33,867 nt of DNA, from positions 1 through 33,867 of the forward strand of contig CAMBQV010000011.1 of assembly GCA_945870145.1 (NCBI GenBank), read 5' to 3'. This stretch comes from Akkermansia muciniphila. GTDB taxonomy: Bacteria > Verrucomicrobiota > Kiritimatiellia > RFP12 > UBA1067. Of this stretch, positions 1,823 to 33,867 are shown piece by piece. Each line of letters begins with the position of its first letter. Within the stretch, counting starts at the first letter, position 1. The position numbers and the translations under genes are program-made. The notes under the pieces were generated by a model. That model did no database searches and was not told where the DNA came from. It saw only the letters and a list, made by a program, of their open reading frames with translations.

Positions 1823-1855
1823 AGTAGCAGTAGGCAGTAGCAGTTGGCAGTTAAT
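1823..1855. repeat. Degenerate heptamer array, AGTNGGC family: AGTAGC|AGTAGGC|AGTAGC|AGTTGGC|AGTTAAT
   Basis: Direct reading; 6/7-nt periodicity, intergenic, 24 nt after ccsA stop. Confidence 0.85.
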
Positions 1856-3586: not shown

Positions 3587-3982
3587 ATGAAAAAACTATT
3601 AAAGAGTGCTTTGGTCCTGACGCTCCTTCTCTGCCTCTCGGGTTGTGCAACGGTAAAGATGGCCCGTAACTTTGAAGGACTCCGCGTGGATGATGGGGCC
3701 AAACCCGTTGCCTCGGTGGCCATTGAGAATTATGGTTACTACCTCTTCGGTTTTATCCCGCTGATCGCGGGCGAACCTCGTTATCCGAATGCGCCGCTGT
3801 GTACGCTCTTCAGCGACTCAGTGACTCCACAGAACAATATGATGATGCTCGCGAAGACCGCCCAGAAGACAGGAGCTAAAAAGGTTACAAACCTGCGCGT
3901 CTATGAATCGTGGACAGGGTCCTTCTCCTTCTGGGTCGTCTGGCAAAAACAACTTTATACAGGAGCGCTCCTGACCGAATGA
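3587..3982 (+). CDS. Small lipoprotein of unknown function with NYGYYLF motif (paralog 2)
   Basis: Lipobox-like LLCLSGC; 'VASVAIENYGYYLFGFIPLIAGEP'; 12-nt gap from paralog 1. Confidence 0.75.
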   Translation: MKKLLKSALVLTLLLCLSGCATVKMARNFEGLRVDDGAKPVASVAIENYGYYLFGFIPLIAGEPRYPNAPLCTLFSDSVTPQNNMMMLAKTAQKTGAKKVTNLRVYESWTGSFSFWVVWQKQLYTGALLTE

Positions 3983-5196
3983 GCTTGGAACTGCTCGCAC
4001 CCGCAGGCGACATGACCTGCCTTCAGGCGGCCCTCGATGCAGGTGCCGACGCTGTCTATCTTGGCCTCGAGTCGCTGAACATGCGCCAACTGGCCACGCG
4101 TAATTTTACGCGAGAGACTTTACCAGAGGCTTCGGCTCGCTGTCGCGCCCGAAAGGTGAAGCTCTATTTGACGCTGAACAGCATCCTCTACGAAGACGAG
4201 CTTCCCGAACTGGAGTCGCTCCTGCGTTTTGCCCAGCCCTTGATTGATGCGGCTATTGTTGCAGACTGGGCTGCCATCACTGCGTGTAAGCGTCTCGGAG
4301 TTCCCTTTCATATCTCTACGCAAATGTCCTGCTCCAACTCGGTTGCTGCGCGCGTTCTCGTCGAACAGGGGGCCAGTCGTATCGTCTTGGCACGCGAGTG
4401 TTCGCTGGACGAGGTGGCAGCCATTGCCCAGAGCGGCATAGAAGTTGAAACCTTTGTGCATGGCGCGATTTGCGTGGCCATCGCCGGACGTTGCCTGCTC
4501 TCCCATGAGGCGTATGGCTGTTCCAGCAGTCGAGGCGAGTGTCATCAACCGTGTCGGCGCGAGTTTTTGATTAAGGAGCTTCGCGAGGGAGAGAACGCGA
4601 ATGCGGAATTCATTGTGCAACCTCATACCGTCCTCTCGGCACGAGACCTCTGTTCGCTCCCCTTCATGGACAAGTTGATAGCGGCAGGTATCACCTCCTT
4701 CAAAATCGAGGGACGTGCTCGTAACCCTGAATATGTAAAGACCGTGGTGACCGCCTATCGTCGAGCCATAGAGGCGGTGCAGGCGGGCTGTTTTGATGCG
4801 CCTCTCGTGGAGACACTCTTGGCGGAGTGCGCCAAGGTCTATCATCGCGAGTTCGGCGTCGGCCTCTTTTATGGTCGTCCCGGCGCGGGCCAGTTCACCA
4901 ACACAGACCTTAATCAAGCCACCCAAAAGAAACTCTACGTCGGGTTAGTTCAGAATTACTATGCAAGAGCTCAGATGGTGCAGGTCGTGATCCAGGATCA
5001 AGCGATCACGCTCGGAGACACCCTCGCAATCCATGGCGAGACCACAGGCGTGGTGGAGGTGAGCATCACGGAGCTAAGGCGTGACGAAGAAGTCCTTGCG
5101 CGCGCTGAACGCGGCACGTGGATCACCTTCCCCTGTGAGCAGCGCGTACGCACAGGCGACAAGGTCTACGTTGTGCGAGAGAGCGGGATTGGATAG
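3979..5196 (+). CDS. Peptidase U32 family protein (TrhP/YegQ-like or related)
   Basis: MSLELLAPAGDMTCLQAALDAGADAVYLG; VHGAICVAIAGRCLLSHEAYGCSSSRGECHQPCRREF; FKIEGRARNPEYVKTVVTAYRRAIEA. ATG at 3979 overlaps previous stop (ATGA); the track start at 3910 is an extension. Confidence 0.88.
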   Translation: MSLELLAPAGDMTCLQAALDAGADAVYLGLESLNMRQLATRNFTRETLPEASARCRARKVKLYLTLNSILYEDELPELESLLRFAQPLIDAAIVADWAAITACKRLGVPFHISTQMSCSNSVAARVLVEQGASRIVLARECSLDEVAAIAQSGIEVETFVHGAICVAIAGRCLLSHEAYGCSSSRGECHQPCRREFLIKELREGENANAEFIVQPHTVLSARDLCSLPFMDKLIAAGITSFKIEGRARNPEYVKTVVTAYRRAIEAVQAGCFDAPLVETLLAECAKVYHREFGVGLFYGRPGAGQFTNTDLNQATQKKLYVGLVQNYYARAQMVQVVIQDQAITLGDTLAIHGETTGVVEVSITELRRDEEVLARAERGTWITFPCEQRVRTGDKVYVVRESGIG

Positions 5197-5228
5197 TAGG
5201 CAGTTGGCAGTAGCAGTAGGCAGTCACC
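5195..5228. repeat. AGTNGGC-family array: AGTAGGC|AGTTGGC|AGTAGC|AGTAGGC|AGTCACC
   Basis: Direct reading; first unit overlaps the U32 TAG stop (5194-5196). Confidence 0.88.
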
Positions 5229-5292
5229 TCTTGCGTCCTTTTGTCCTGCTATCCTTTTATCAAAATTAATTTGTACATTCTTAAAGGGCTCT

Positions 5293-5319
5293 GCCCACTG
5301 CCGACTGCTACTGCCTACT
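5293..5319. repeat. AGTNGGC-family array on the minus strand: GCCCACT|GCCGACT|GCTACT|GCCTACT
   Basis: Reverse complement AGTAGGC|AGTAGC|AGTCGGC|AGTGGGC; contains the TAG stop (5315-5317) of the minus-strand CDS; inverted partner of 5195-5228. Confidence 0.88.
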
Positions 5320-6013
5320 GCGCTGCCACGGGCGCGAGGTCAGTCCGATGCTTCACGATCTCCTCGACGATCTGGGTGATGCCGGCGTAGTGCCAGCCAT
5401 CGAGCGTGAGCTTCTTATTGTTGGCGCATACGAGACGGACAATGCCCTTCTCTTTCCACTGGGACCAGTCAACAGAGACAATATCGGTGTAGTCAAGAGG
5501 TTGGGAACCGATGCTTGTTCCGCTCAAACCCTGCTCATCCGCACTAAACTGCCGCGTCGCCCGAAAGGCGATTACACCAAAGGCTAGAAGTCCGAAAATA
5601 AGGGTGATACCTGCTTGTACAAATTGCGTTGTGAGATCTTGCTCAGAGTAGACGGGCTTTTTAAAAAGGTCTGTCAAGTGTTTGGCTTGCGCCTCACGCG
5701 CGGCCGTGTCGTTGGCTAGCTCCTTGGACAACTTTAATTCGCCCATCTTTTTGACGAGCTTGGAGGGTGCGCTCGCGCCTTTCTTTGCAAAGAGGAGATC
5801 CAAGGGCGTCTTGCCGTCCTCGTCGCGGTCAAGCCAAGCCGTGACCGTGAGATTCGTGGCGAGTAACTCCTGGCGAACCGACTCCAGGGTTGTGTTGACC
5901 TTCGGATAGGCTTTGGCGCCGTCATAGATGGACCAGAGGCAGATGCCAACCATCATGGCACCCACACCCAGTATACGGAACGCGTACTCACGATTCAGTT
6001 TGGTTGTGATCAT
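5315..6013 (-). CDS. Hypothetical membrane protein (two predicted TM segments)
   Basis: ILGVGAMMVGICLWSIYDG and FVQAGITLIFGLLAFGVIAF hydrophobic segments; C-terminal soluble region. Confidence 0.7.
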   Translation of the reverse strand: MITTKLNREYAFRILGVGAMMVGICLWSIYDGAKAYPKVNTTLESVRQELLATNLTVTAWLDRDEDGKTPLDLLFAKKGASAPSKLVKKMGELKLSKELANDTAAREAQAKHLTDLFKKPVYSEQDLTTQFVQAGITLIFGLLAFGVIAFRATRQFSADEQGLSGTSIGSQPLDYTDIVSVDWSQWKEKGIVRLVCANNKKLTLDGWHYAGITQIVEEIVKHRTDLAPVAAQ

Positions 6014-22212: not shown

Positions 22213-23406
22213 ATGGCAACGAAACGTGATTACTATGTCGTGCTGGGCGTGAGTAAAACAGCCAGCGCGGATGAGATTAAAAAAGCGTATCGCAAGTTGG
22301 CGATGCAGTTCCACCCTGATCGCAATCCCAACGACAAGGATGCTGCTGAAAAATTCAAGGAAGCCAGCGAGGCCTACGAAGTTTTGAGCGACGAAGCCAA
22401 GCGTCAACGCTATGATCAGTACGGACACGAGGGCGTAAAATCCTCCTTTGGTTCAGGGGGTTTTGACTTTGGACGTGACTTCACCCACATGCAGGACATT
22501 GATTTGCAGGATATTCTGGGCAGTGTCTTTGGCGGTGGACTTGGGGATATGTTTGGCGGGGGAGGCGGTGGTGGACGTCGCCGTTCGCGCAACCCGAATG
22601 AGCCCCAGCGCGGCAATGATCTGCGCTTCGACTTGGAGATTGATTTTGAGGAGGCCGTTTTTGGTTCCGAACGTCAGGTGGACCTTACGGTCAACGACAC
22701 TTGCGAAACCTGCAAGGGGGCCGGCACGGCAGAGGGTTCGTCTCGCGAGTCTTGCAAGCAGTGCAATGGACATGGCTTTGTAGTTCAAGGCAATGGCTTC
22801 TTCCAGATGCGCCATGCCTGTCCGATCTGCAACGGCGAGGGAAGCATCGTCAAGAACCCCTGTCGCAAGTGCCAAGGCACAGGACGTATCAAGGCGCCAC
22901 GCCATATCACGCTTAAGATTCCAAAGGGTGTTGAGACGGGTTCCCGTTTGCGTCTCACCGGCAAAGGTGAGAGCGGTTCACGCGGAGGCGAACATGGCGA
23001 CCTCTATGTTGTGCTCCATGTGCGCGACCATGAGGTCTTTGAACGTCATGGCGACGACCTCGCCTGTAATGTTCATGTGTCACCTGTACTTGCCACGCTA
23101 GGAGGCGACATTGATGTTCCGACCCCTGAAGGATATGCGCGCCTGAAACTTCCGGCAGGGACCGCAACCGGTAAGGTCTTCCGGTTGCGCGATAAGGGTA
23201 TGCCCAGCTTGCAAGGCGGCAATGGCGATCTCCATGTGCGCATCGAGGTTGAAGTGCCGCAGAATCTTGGCGGTGGTCAACGTAAGGCGCTCGAGGCCTT
23301 TGCTGCAACCCTCACGCCCGACAATTTCCCAGAGGCCCGCAAGTTCCAGAAGCAGACTGACCGCTTCTTTGAGCGCCGTGATGCGCTCAGGAAAGTTAAA
23401 AGTTAA
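22213..23406 (+). CDS. dnaJ: DnaJ chaperone
   Basis: J domain with HPD, G/F-rich linker, four CxxCxGxG-type Zn motifs. Confidence 0.97.
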
Positions 23407-23433
23407 AAGTGAAAACTTGAAACTCGAAGCTTG
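23392..23433. repeat. Exact-7-nt-period array AAAGTTA|AAAGTTA|AAAGTGA|AAACTTG|AAACTCG|AAGCTTG
   Basis: Starts within the last dnaJ codons; stop TAA (23404-23406) lies in the array. Confidence 0.85.
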
Positions 23434-23438
23434 GTAAT

Positions 23439-23465
23439 ACTGCCCACTGCTACTGCCTACTGTTA
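23439..23465. repeat. AGTNGGC-family array (minus orientation): ACTGCCC|ACTGCT|ACTGCCT|ACTGTTA
   Basis: Direct reading; ends 5 nt before rsmE ATG. Confidence 0.85.
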
Positions 23466-23470
23466 CTTCC

Positions 23471-24220
23471 ATGCACCGCCACCTTGTCAAAACAGAAGCA
23501 CTCCTCGCCGCCACCTGCGTGCTCGGCAAGGAGGAGGCGCATCATTTGCAGACGGTCCTCCGCGTCAAGCCCGGTGATGAGGTTCAGCTCTTTGATGGCC
23601 AGGGACGCACACGGCAAGCCGCCGTGGCTGATCTCGCCAAGAACGCCCTTACGCTCTCAACTATTGCGCCCGTTGTGTTTCATGCCAAACCCGCCTGCGC
23701 CTTGACCCTCTTTGCCTGTGTCAGCAAAGGGAAGCACATGGACTGGACCATCGAGAAGGCAGTGGAGTTGGGTGTCGCACGGATTGTTCCTGTTGTTTCC
23801 GCTCGCACGATCGTTCGTATTGAGTCCGAAGACCGTGACGCAAAAGTTGATCGCTGGATGCGCATTGCAGAGGAGGCGACACGGCAGTGCGGAAGCGCCT
23901 GGCTTCCTGAGATTCTTCCGCCCTGTTCGCTCACCGAAAGCCTCGCGCTGGTCAAGGCAACCACGCCGACCTTTGTCGCCGCCCTCACACCAGATGCCAA
24001 ACCTTTGCGCGAATATCTCCTACCAACTGCCAACTGCAACTGCCAACTGCCCACTGTCCAAGCAGGCTGGTTTGTCGGACCGGAAGGCGATTTCACGCCA
24101 GAGGAGCTTGCCCAGCTCTTGGAAGCAGGAGCGCTCCCCGTCAGCCTGGGCAAGAGTGTCCTCCGTACCGAGACCGCCTGTCTCTACGGCCTCTGCGTCC
24201 TCAATTGCGCCTGGCTGTAA
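23471..24220 (+). CDS. rsmE: 16S rRNA m3U1498 methyltransferase RsmE
   Basis: HHLQTVLRVKPGDEVQLFDGQG; VELGVARIVPVVSARTIV; GWFVGPEGDFTPEEL; SLGKSVLRTETA. Confidence 0.93.
   Translation: MHRHLVKTEALLAATCVLGKEEAHHLQTVLRVKPGDEVQLFDGQGRTRQAAVADLAKNALTLSTIAPVVFHAKPACALTLFACVSKGKHMDWTIEKAVELGVARIVPVVSARTIVRIESEDRDAKVDRWMRIAEEATRQCGSAWLPEILPPCSLTESLALVKATTPTFVAALTPDAKPLREYLLPTANCNCQLPTVQAGWFVGPEGDFTPEELAQLLEAGALPVSLGKSVLRTETACLYGLCVLNCAWL
24020..24059. repeat. AGTNGGC-family array inside rsmE coding sequence: CTACCA|ACTGCCA|ACTGCA|ACTGCCA|ACTGCCC|ACTGTCC
   Basis: Direct reading; translated in frame as LPTANCNCQLPTVQ. Confidence 0.88.
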
Positions 24221-24307: not shown

Positions 24308-24341
24308 CCAACCCTGGCGCGGCGTAGCTCTCAAGCGAAGC

Positions 24342-24381
24342 CGGCTGCCGGCTGCCGACTGCGACTGCCAACTGCCACTTT
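24342..24381. repeat. AGTNGGC-family array (minus orientation): CGGCTGC|CGGCTGC|CGACTGC|GACTGC|CAACTGC|CAC
   Basis: Direct reading; 5 nt from the comM stop codon. Confidence 0.82.
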
Positions 24382-24385
24382 CCCC

Positions 24386-25921
24386 TCACATCCAAATGCT
24401 GCGATCGAGGGAACGGTATTGAATCGCCTCGGAGATATGGCCGGGGCCGATCTCTTCAGCGCCCTCCATATCGGCGATGGTGCGGGCGACTTTGACGATG
24501 CGATCATACGCGCGTGCGCTGAAATGAAACTCGGTCATGGCCATTTTGAGCAACTCGGCTGCCTCCTCCGAAGGGACGCAATGGTCCTGCACATCGCGCG
24601 CTGACATCGCTGCATTACACGTGATCTTGGGATTGCGCGCAAAGCGTTCGCGTTGTCGCCGGCGACAGGTTTCGACGCGATCCCGAATCTCAGCAGAGGG
24701 CGTACCGCGACCTAAGGTGCTCATCTGGTCGTAATTCACCGGGGGCACTTCGATGTGGATGTCGATGCGATCCAGCAAGGGACCTGAAATCTTGTTGCGA
24801 TAGGCCTGTATCTTGGTTGAGGTACAACGGCACTCGCGTTTGGGGTCCCCTGCAAAGCCGCAGGGACACGGATTCATCGCAGCCACAAGCATGAAGCGGG
24901 AGGGGAAGTCGAGGGTGGCTGCGGCGCGGGAGATCGTGACATGGCCATCTTCGAGGGGCTGGCGAAGCACCTCTAAAACGTTGCGATGAAATTCAGGGAG
25001 TTCGTCGAGGAAGAGGACGCCCCGATGGGCCAAACTCACCTCGCCGGGCAAGGGATGGACACCGCCCCCCAAGAGTCCAGCATCTGAGATGGTATGGTGT
25101 GGCGACCGGAAGGGACGTTGGAAGATCAAGGCCTGATGGCTCTTGAGCGTCCCGGCGATGCTGTGGATGCGTGTAGCTTCGAGCGCCTCCTCCAAATGCA
25201 TCTCAGGCAGGATCGAGGCGATACGTCGCGCCAGCATGGTTTTGCCTGCGCCAGGCGAGCCAATCATCAGGATATTGTGGCCACCACAAACCGCGACCTC
25301 GATCGCCCGCTTGGCAGACTCCTGGCCCTTGACATCCGCGAAATCTTCGGTGTGTCCGCGCTCACGTTGGATCAGTTCGGAAAGCTCGACGCGAAAGGGT
25401 TCCAGTTTCAAGGACCCCGAGAGAAACTCGATGGCCTCTCGCAGGTGGCGGACAGGGTAGACCTCAATGCCCTCGGCAACGGCCGCCTCTTCTGCATTGT
25501 CCGCAGGTACAATGATGCCACGTTTGCCTTGCTTACGCATCTCAAGCGTCACAGGGAGTACGCCTCTGACACGACGTACCTCGCCACTCAACGCCAATTC
25601 ACCGATCAAGGCGAACTGGTCGAGATTGGGCATTTCGGCCTCTCCTGTGGCCGCTAGCAGCCCCGCCGCGATCGGCAGGTCATAGACCGGCCCCTCCTTC
25701 TTGATGTCAGCAGGGGCAAGATTAATGGTGGTACGCCCGATCATGGGACGGAACCCCGAGTTGTTCATGGCGGTGAGTACGCGGTCCTTGCTTTCGCGAA
25801 CCGCTGCATCGGGCAATCCGACAATCACAAACTGCGCTTCACCCTTGCCCGCGTTGACCTCGATCTCGACCGAATAGGCATTGACGCCATACACGGCGCC
25901 TGAATAGACACGTGATAACAT
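24386..25921 (-). CDS. comM: YifB/ComM-family Mg-chelatase-like AAA+ ATPase
   Basis: MLSRVYSGAVYGVNAYSVEIEV...; GGHNILMIGSPGAGKTMLARRIASILP; FRSPHHTISDAGLLGGG; MNPCPCGFAGDP. Confidence 0.95.
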   Translation of the reverse strand: MLSRVYSGAVYGVNAYSVEIEVNAGKGEAQFVIVGLPDAAVRESKDRVLTAMNNSGFRPMIGRTTINLAPADIKKEGPVYDLPIAAGLLAATGEAEMPNLDQFALIGELALSGEVRRVRGVLPVTLEMRKQGKRGIIVPADNAEEAAVAEGIEVYPVRHLREAIEFLSGSLKLEPFRVELSELIQRERGHTEDFADVKGQESAKRAIEVAVCGGHNILMIGSPGAGKTMLARRIASILPEMHLEEALEATRIHSIAGTLKSHQALIFQRPFRSPHHTISDAGLLGGGVHPLPGEVSLAHRGVLFLDELPEFHRNVLEVLRQPLEDGHVTISRAAATLDFPSRFMLVAAMNPCPCGFAGDPKRECRCTSTKIQAYRNKISGPLLDRIDIHIEVPPVNYDQMSTLGRGTPSAEIRDRVETCRRRQRERFARNPKITCNAAMSARDVQDHCVPSEEAAELLKMAMTEFHFSARAYDRIVKVARTIADMEGAEEIGPGHISEAIQYRSLDRSIWM

Positions 25922-33703: not shown

Positions 33704-33718
33704 GTAAAAGTGAGGTGT

Positions 33719-33867
33719 ACGGGCGTCCCCGCCCGTACTTTGCGCAGGCGCGGACGCCTGCGTACCGTGTGCGTGGCGTACGGGCGTCCCCGCCCGTACT
33801 TTGCGCAGGCGCGGACGCCTGCGCACCGTGGGCGTGGCGTACGGGCGTCCCCGCCCGTACGTTGCGC
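33719..33867. repeat. 61-bp tandem repeat of alternating hairpins, at least 2.4 copies, running off the window end
   Basis: Hairpins GTACGGGCG-TCCC-CGCCCGTAC and CGCAGGCG-CGGA-CGCCTGCG; 'cgggcgtccccgcccgtac' recurs at 33720, 33781 and 33842. Confidence 0.92.

Follow-up and report, generated by a model that had tools for sequence, protein, structure and literature searches.

The STRR class of cyanobacteria consists of degenerate, dispersed 7-bp tandem repeats and is comparable to the repeat family described here. In Xanthomonas and Nostoc, the G-rich heptads GGGAATC and GGGGAYT lie on the sense strand no more than ~50 bp from stop codons and are under-represented in coding sequence (Rehm et al., 2015; PMC4692102). 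The TAACTGA heptads of marine Beggiatoaceae are intergenic and show a sporadic phylogenetic spread; one of their orientations is stop-free and reads as the cyclic heptapeptide LSVISYQ (MacGregor, 2015; PMC4679880). Rickettsia palindromic elements, by comparison, are palindromes of 105–146 bp that form long stem-loops (Ogata et al., 2000; reviewed by Delihas, PMC2229807). Tandem repeats with unit lengths indivisible by three are not expected within genes; here we describe a 7-bp family that appears to have entered a conserved rRNA methylase. Our search of the literature on repeats in Kiritimatiellae found no matching paper.

The window analyzed, a stretch of 33,867 nucleotides, comes from a Kiritimatiellae metagenome genome of 2.43 Mb that is ~79% complete (G000). 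The genus comparison comprises two genomes, G000 and its congener G001 (whose contig C87 matches CAIZQW010000087.1), both of them metagenome assemblies. Gene context was taken from ~3-kb stretches with a simple codon-based gene caller, so that gene limits are approximate and some arrays called as lying inside genes sit at gene ends. The gene of interest, rsmE, encodes a protein with the Pfam domains Methyltrans_RNA (PF04452, 7.7e-43) and PUA_4 (PF20260, 1.6e-13), and its PDB relatives 5vm8, 1nxz and 4e8b were found by sequence as well as by fold. The original prediction, that repeat words which are intergenic elsewhere in the window, including just 5′ and 3′ of this gene, are also translated in frame within it, was confirmed on both counts: the reading frame is intact, the array has the exact limits given in Table 1 with a hexamer as its third unit, and an array is present on either side. 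The coding array is a degenerate 41-bp tandem of the STRR-like kind, with five 7-bp units and one 6-bp unit (CTACCAA CTGCCAA CTGCAA CTGCCAA CTGCCCA CTGTCCA; layout 7-7-6-7-7-7), and it begins at codon phase 0 and translates as LPTANCNCQLPTVQ. Folding found no RNA structure at the array (z +1.49), which is not palindromic and does not form the long palindromic stem-loop that characterizes the Rickettsia elements.

Table 1. Repeat arrays and associated features in the window (positions refer to the whole window)
Feature	Position	Strand	Evidence or comparison
AGTNGGC-sense array, 24 nt past stop of gene 993–1799	1823–1852	+	
AGTNGGC-sense array overlapping stop codon of gene 3910–5196	5195–5224	+	
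Array at stop of convergent gene 5315–6013, inverted pair with 5195–5224	5291–5321	-	
Second heptad family (AAAGTTA), same spacer as 5′ array	23392–23415	+	Repeat scan
Intergenic array just 5′ of rsmE; absent in congener	23438–23467	-	Repeat scan, congener comparison
rsmE (16S rRNA m3U methyltransferase), 249 aa, intact	23471–24220	+	Pfam, PDB relatives
Coding 7/6-bp array, residues 184–197, GCCNACT in sense strand	24020–24060	+	Common to congener G001 (6 bp shorter)
Hexamer unit CTGCAA, source of 6-bp in-frame difference from congener and of second NC	24034–24039	+	rsmE alignment
Palindrome-like dispersed element GCGTAGCNNNNNNGCGAAGCCGGC, adjoining 3′ array	24322–24345	+	Genome matches
Intergenic array 3′ of rsmE; absent in congener	24340–24380	-	Repeat scan, congener comparison

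The family to which these words belong is made up of degenerate tandem CAGTNGG heptads and CAGTAG/CAGTTG hexamers, and most of its units hold only GG as their G tract. With at most one mismatch, its 13-bp composite, CAGTNGGCAGTAGCAGTNGGCAG, matches 102 times in G000 and 141 times in G001, and not once when the pattern is read backwards as a control. Exact matching of the same composite across 162 genomes of the order found it in four, belonging to two different families, with 59, 91, 32, and 1 matches. Of 106 arrays at loci sampled from the genus, 96 fall outside genes as called by the simple codon-based method. An intergenic copy at locus L087 carries the string CTGCCAACTGCAACTGCCAACTGCC, identical to that in rsmE, with the 7-7-6-7 layout found in the coding array, and the intergenic arrays at a site shared by the two species (L115/L184) differ in length by 13–14 bp. 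The palindrome-like element that adjoins the 3′ array is itself dispersed (7 matches in G000, 17 in G001, and 0 for reversed controls) and occurs within coding genes at L120 and L191.

Like STRR-like heptads, the family combines dispersed, mainly intergenic copies with a sense-strand preference right after stop codons. Of the 65 arrays no more than 60 nt from a stop codon, the AGTNGGC sense accounts for 61 and the ACT sense for 4, most of them at -13 to +30 nt, and the sample from G046, which belongs to another family of the order, shows likewise an AGTNGGC-sense bias after stops of 10 to 1 (leaving out an apparent N-terminal array in a queA-like ORF, L275, that is probably 5′ of the true start). 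The array 3′ of rsmE, for instance, lies in the AGTNGGC sense immediately past the stop of the convergent gene 24386–25921. Where two convergent genes each have an array at their stop, the resulting inverted pair (5195–5321) has a strong RNA fold (z -4.30 for 5190–5325) and resembles a two-way terminator; only some intergenic copies pair in this manner. A search for known RNA families in the window gave none at gathering score. One putative idea is that the opposite strand of the arrays, which is C-rich, G-poor, and unstructured, may serve Rho-dependent termination of transcripts arriving from downstream. Genes also end or start within arrays (L086, L089, L091, L105, and L230 in G000; L172 and L186 in G001); the C-terminus of an MTHFR-domain protein, SVGSWQYQWAVAVGSHLRQGYGGQGSSWQNT, falls in one, and the arrays seem to shift gene ends. 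Separately, the end of the window (33717–33867) holds a tandem array with a 61-bp period, 2.5 copies, and 96% of positions matched.

How can a 7-bp repeat be read through at all? Arrays in the GCCNACT sense are stop-free in all frames for any N, and since three does not divide seven, every frame yields the same cyclic heptapeptide, LPTANCQ when N is A and LPTADCR when N is G. Over 139 arrays, 3.0 of 3 frames are open in the GCCNACT sense, whereas the AGTNGGC sense has a mean of 1.59, owing to the TAG within AGTAGG and AGTAGC. The rsmE array is translated in the open GCCNACT sense.

The congener's rsmE, whose protein is 92% identical to that of the window, has five near-perfect heptads at the same place (CTGCCAA three times and CTGCCCA twice), in frame and 6 bp shorter. 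Its loop reads LPTANCQLPTAQ and lacks NCNC; the NCNC of the window RsmE is therefore species-specific, and the earlier remark on an NCNC insert is true of the window protein, where the cysteine pair arises from the 6-bp unit, and does not extend to the congener. Neither of the intergenic arrays flanking the window gene is present in the congener, which nonetheless has the coding array, so the flanking words give no sign of local spread, and a local spread into rsmE from the flanking arrays is unsupported. The loop is 18 residues long in the window protein and 16 in the congener, compared with 11–14, mostly 13, in the nearest relatives outside the genus (56–68% identity), whose loops are unrelated in sequence and mostly Ala/Pro-rich, for example EALAAHAAPPPRA. 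More distant RsmE orthologs have loops of 11–18 residues with one outlier of 48, and since 15–18-residue loops occur among them, the length of the window loop is not exceptional by itself. No exact empty site was found among the outgroup RsmE loops, which are too diverged for a precise insertion, a duplicated target, or a lost segment to be recognized. The unrelated, shorter outgroup loops imply that the window loop was replaced as well as lengthened, with a net gain of five residues and no clean 14-residue insert; cleaner contrasts are provided by the DUF218 protein and by a 43-aa gain in a glycosyltransferase, both described below. Elsewhere among RsmE proteins, this loop is ~30 residues longer in a Verrucomicrobia member (L051:3001–3846), and Limisphaerales members (L056, L058, and L059) have a 25-aa insert, RSGGRQTAGLVGENEKCGSLPKAAT, in a different loop that looks repeat-derived.

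The AlphaFold model of RsmE has a mean pLDDT of 92.9, and its confidence is lowest around the array, at residues 181–200 (~75). In this model a helix ends at 187 and a strand at 196–202 leads to GPEG at 203–206; judging from this order of elements, the array would lie at the far end of the strand from GPEG. The PDB relatives have a gap at the array position in the RsmE alignment, in agreement with the model and with the original prediction of a plausible loop just before GPEG. That prediction was also open to challenge by orthologs from repeat-free genomes with the same length and a similar sequence in this segment; the loops of the nearest relatives outside the genus are shorter and unrelated. 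Taken as comparisons of sequences and a predicted structure, these results support the view that coding genes are open to entry by a dispersed element, which may be tolerated there as a surface loop.

Copies of the family are translated in other genes of the genus. A glycosyltransferase (L092 in G000, L191 in G001; Glycos_transf_1, 5.9e-31 and 5.8e-26) contains, in both species, an in-frame inverted array pair that reads AVGSSSRQL ... LPTAN/H around an unrelated middle, and the array region differs in length by 6 bp between the species. The G001 protein has also gained 43 aa in frame that G000 lacks; this stretch is built of further dispersed repeats, among them a palindrome that occurs twice and is read as TPRQGEAVP and TPRQGEALP. 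Two further G001 glycosyltransferases, L187 and L190, likewise contain arrays. In the G001 DUF218 protein (L215), NCPLLLPTATA lies in a segment missing from the outgroup ortholog (L287 of G005), and in the G000 ortholog the corresponding loop holds another insertion, without an array. A cytochrome-like protein shared by the two species (L091 on C43 in G000, L280 on C149 in G001) has CLLLLPTATAFLL(S/T)GC in common, an apparent lipoprotein signal. Since repeats are translated in rsmE, the glycosyltransferases, the DUF218 protein, and the cytochrome-like protein, several repeat families appear to be tolerated inside genes of this genus. Around the G001 glycosyltransferase, the stretch with the 43-aa gain (L191:961–1108) and a composite stretch of more than 60 aa in the adjoining epimerase-like gene (L191:3–330) hold the TPRQGEAVP palindrome, a GCGTAGC...GAAGCCGGC element, LRQGYGGQ, and NFRTLELQNFRT. 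On the minus strand of the G000 locus, the first 770 bases include a candidate REP-associated tyrosine transposase-like ORF, assigned by eye from its IMPDHLHVVVHV motif, which adjoins the glycosyltransferase and could mobilize some of the palindromic elements.

Several explanations of the rsmE array need to be weighed. On a periodic, gapless heptad score, the window rsmE reaches 17 and the congener rsmE 32, compared with no more than 13 in any of 2000 codon shuffles of the window gene, 5–8 for 17 window genes, and 5–6 for seven RsmE orthologs of other lineages; the codon shuffles and the ortholog scores rule out chance or codon usage as the source. Among 2000 synonymous-codon shuffles of the window gene, 7 attain 17, which indicates that the peptide itself already accounts for most of the signal in this decayed G000 copy. 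The heptad scores, together with six matches in the window to AGTTGGCAGTTGGC (two tandem units, at most two mismatches) where 0.34 were expected, also led us to reject ordinary protein evolution, by which LPTANCNCQLPT would be a divergent loop with codons resembling the repeat by coincidence; although the loop does vary in length across the RsmE family, we give this reading next to no credence. Growth in place, in which slippage expanded a chance CTGCCAACTGCC in the old loop with no part played by the intergenic family, is in keeping with a slippage-type 6-bp change at the rsmE site and with the congener copy being the most regular. However, the 7/6-bp word, present more than 100 times in this genome, is all but missing from the rest of the order, the rsmE layout, hexamer included, matches an intergenic copy, and the same words appear in other genes of the genus; we consider such growth rather unlikely, and an array source elsewhere in the genome is what the distribution suggests.

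Might the array instead be of use to the cell? As a phase-variable contingency locus, it would toggle rsmE by frameshift through heptad slippage, and indeed each 7-bp unit gained or lost shifts the frame, the congener copy consists of five near-regular units, and single slips (of 7 or 13 bp in the rsmE array) remove GPEG. The sole change seen between the two assembled genomes is nevertheless an in-frame one of 6 bp, both genes are in the on state, the window copy is broken by the hexamer and by substitutions, and rsmE is a housekeeping rRNA methylase, all of which makes phase variation highly improbable. A selected function of the loop, such as metal or redox binding by the Cys residues or contact with RNA, would account for the coding array being kept in both species when both flanking arrays were not. 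It strikes us as equally hard to credit: NCNC is confined to the window protein, model confidence is lowest in the loop, and common descent with the loss of out-of-frame changes suffices to explain the sharing.

It thus seems probable to us that an array of the dispersed family lodged in a permissive loop of RsmE before the two species split and has been kept in frame since. According to this proposal, arrays would grow or shrink in whole 13/14-bp units, the pattern expected of replication slippage, and before the divergence of the two known species one array would have come into the variable loop that joins the helix ending at ~187 to the GPEG strand, by copying from another array, by recombination, or by growth in place. 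It would have replaced or overwritten most of an ancestral Ala/Pro-rich loop of ~13 residues. We propose that it was tolerated because the length of this loop varies and the catalytic motif lies elsewhere, with a presumably near-neutral effect on RsmE. Since then only an in-frame length change of 6 bp would have survived, as a single 7-bp slip would ruin GPEG and everything downstream.

A broader and more tentative idea, which we hold possible and would not yet bet on, is that stop-anchored arrays serve as lineage-specific raw material for proteins, absorbed in any frame and evolving into loops or targeting signals; such absorption would be permitted by the stop-free reading of GCCNACT in three frames and by its constant peptide. 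The lipoprotein signal before the cytochrome-like protein, kept in both species, may be an example, a suggestion we make with the same reserve. In this multihaem cytochrome-like protein the GCCNACT-read array forms the hydrophobic core of the apparent signal, and the residues upstream differ completely between the species. Together, rsmE and the other genes of the genus offer a natural series for studying how noncoding DNA turns into protein sequence. The stop-codon anchoring, found in another family of the order and in Xanthomonas and Nostoc too, points to a shared property of heptad repeats.

Among known systems, the family belongs with the heptameric STRR-like repeats, as a new sequence whose composite period is 13 bp, whose distribution is sporadic, and some of whose members are translated. 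It shares with the Xanthomonas and Nostoc heptads the degenerate 7-bp tandem units, the many dispersed copies, the unit-wise length variation, the scarcity within coding sequence, and the sense-strand placement at stop codons, and it differs from them in its AGTNGGC unit with interleaved 6-bp units, which give the 13-bp period, in that a G-quadruplex is not expected for most units, and in having translated copies in conserved enzymes that can be traced between species. With the TAACTGA repeats of Beggiatoaceae it has in common intergenic heptads, a sporadic distribution, and the frame argument for a stop-free orientation, whereas the Maribeggiatoa copies lie mainly upstream of start codons rather than after stops, and the units are unrelated. 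The likeness to Rickettsia palindromic elements put forward in the original prediction holds in outcome only: an intergenic repeat also occurs in frame inside conserved proteins, in rsmE and in other genes, where it is apparently tolerated. The rsmE array is 41 bp long, tandem, neither palindromic nor folded, and arrived without a clean insertion, and we claim for it a parallel with those elements rather than membership among them.
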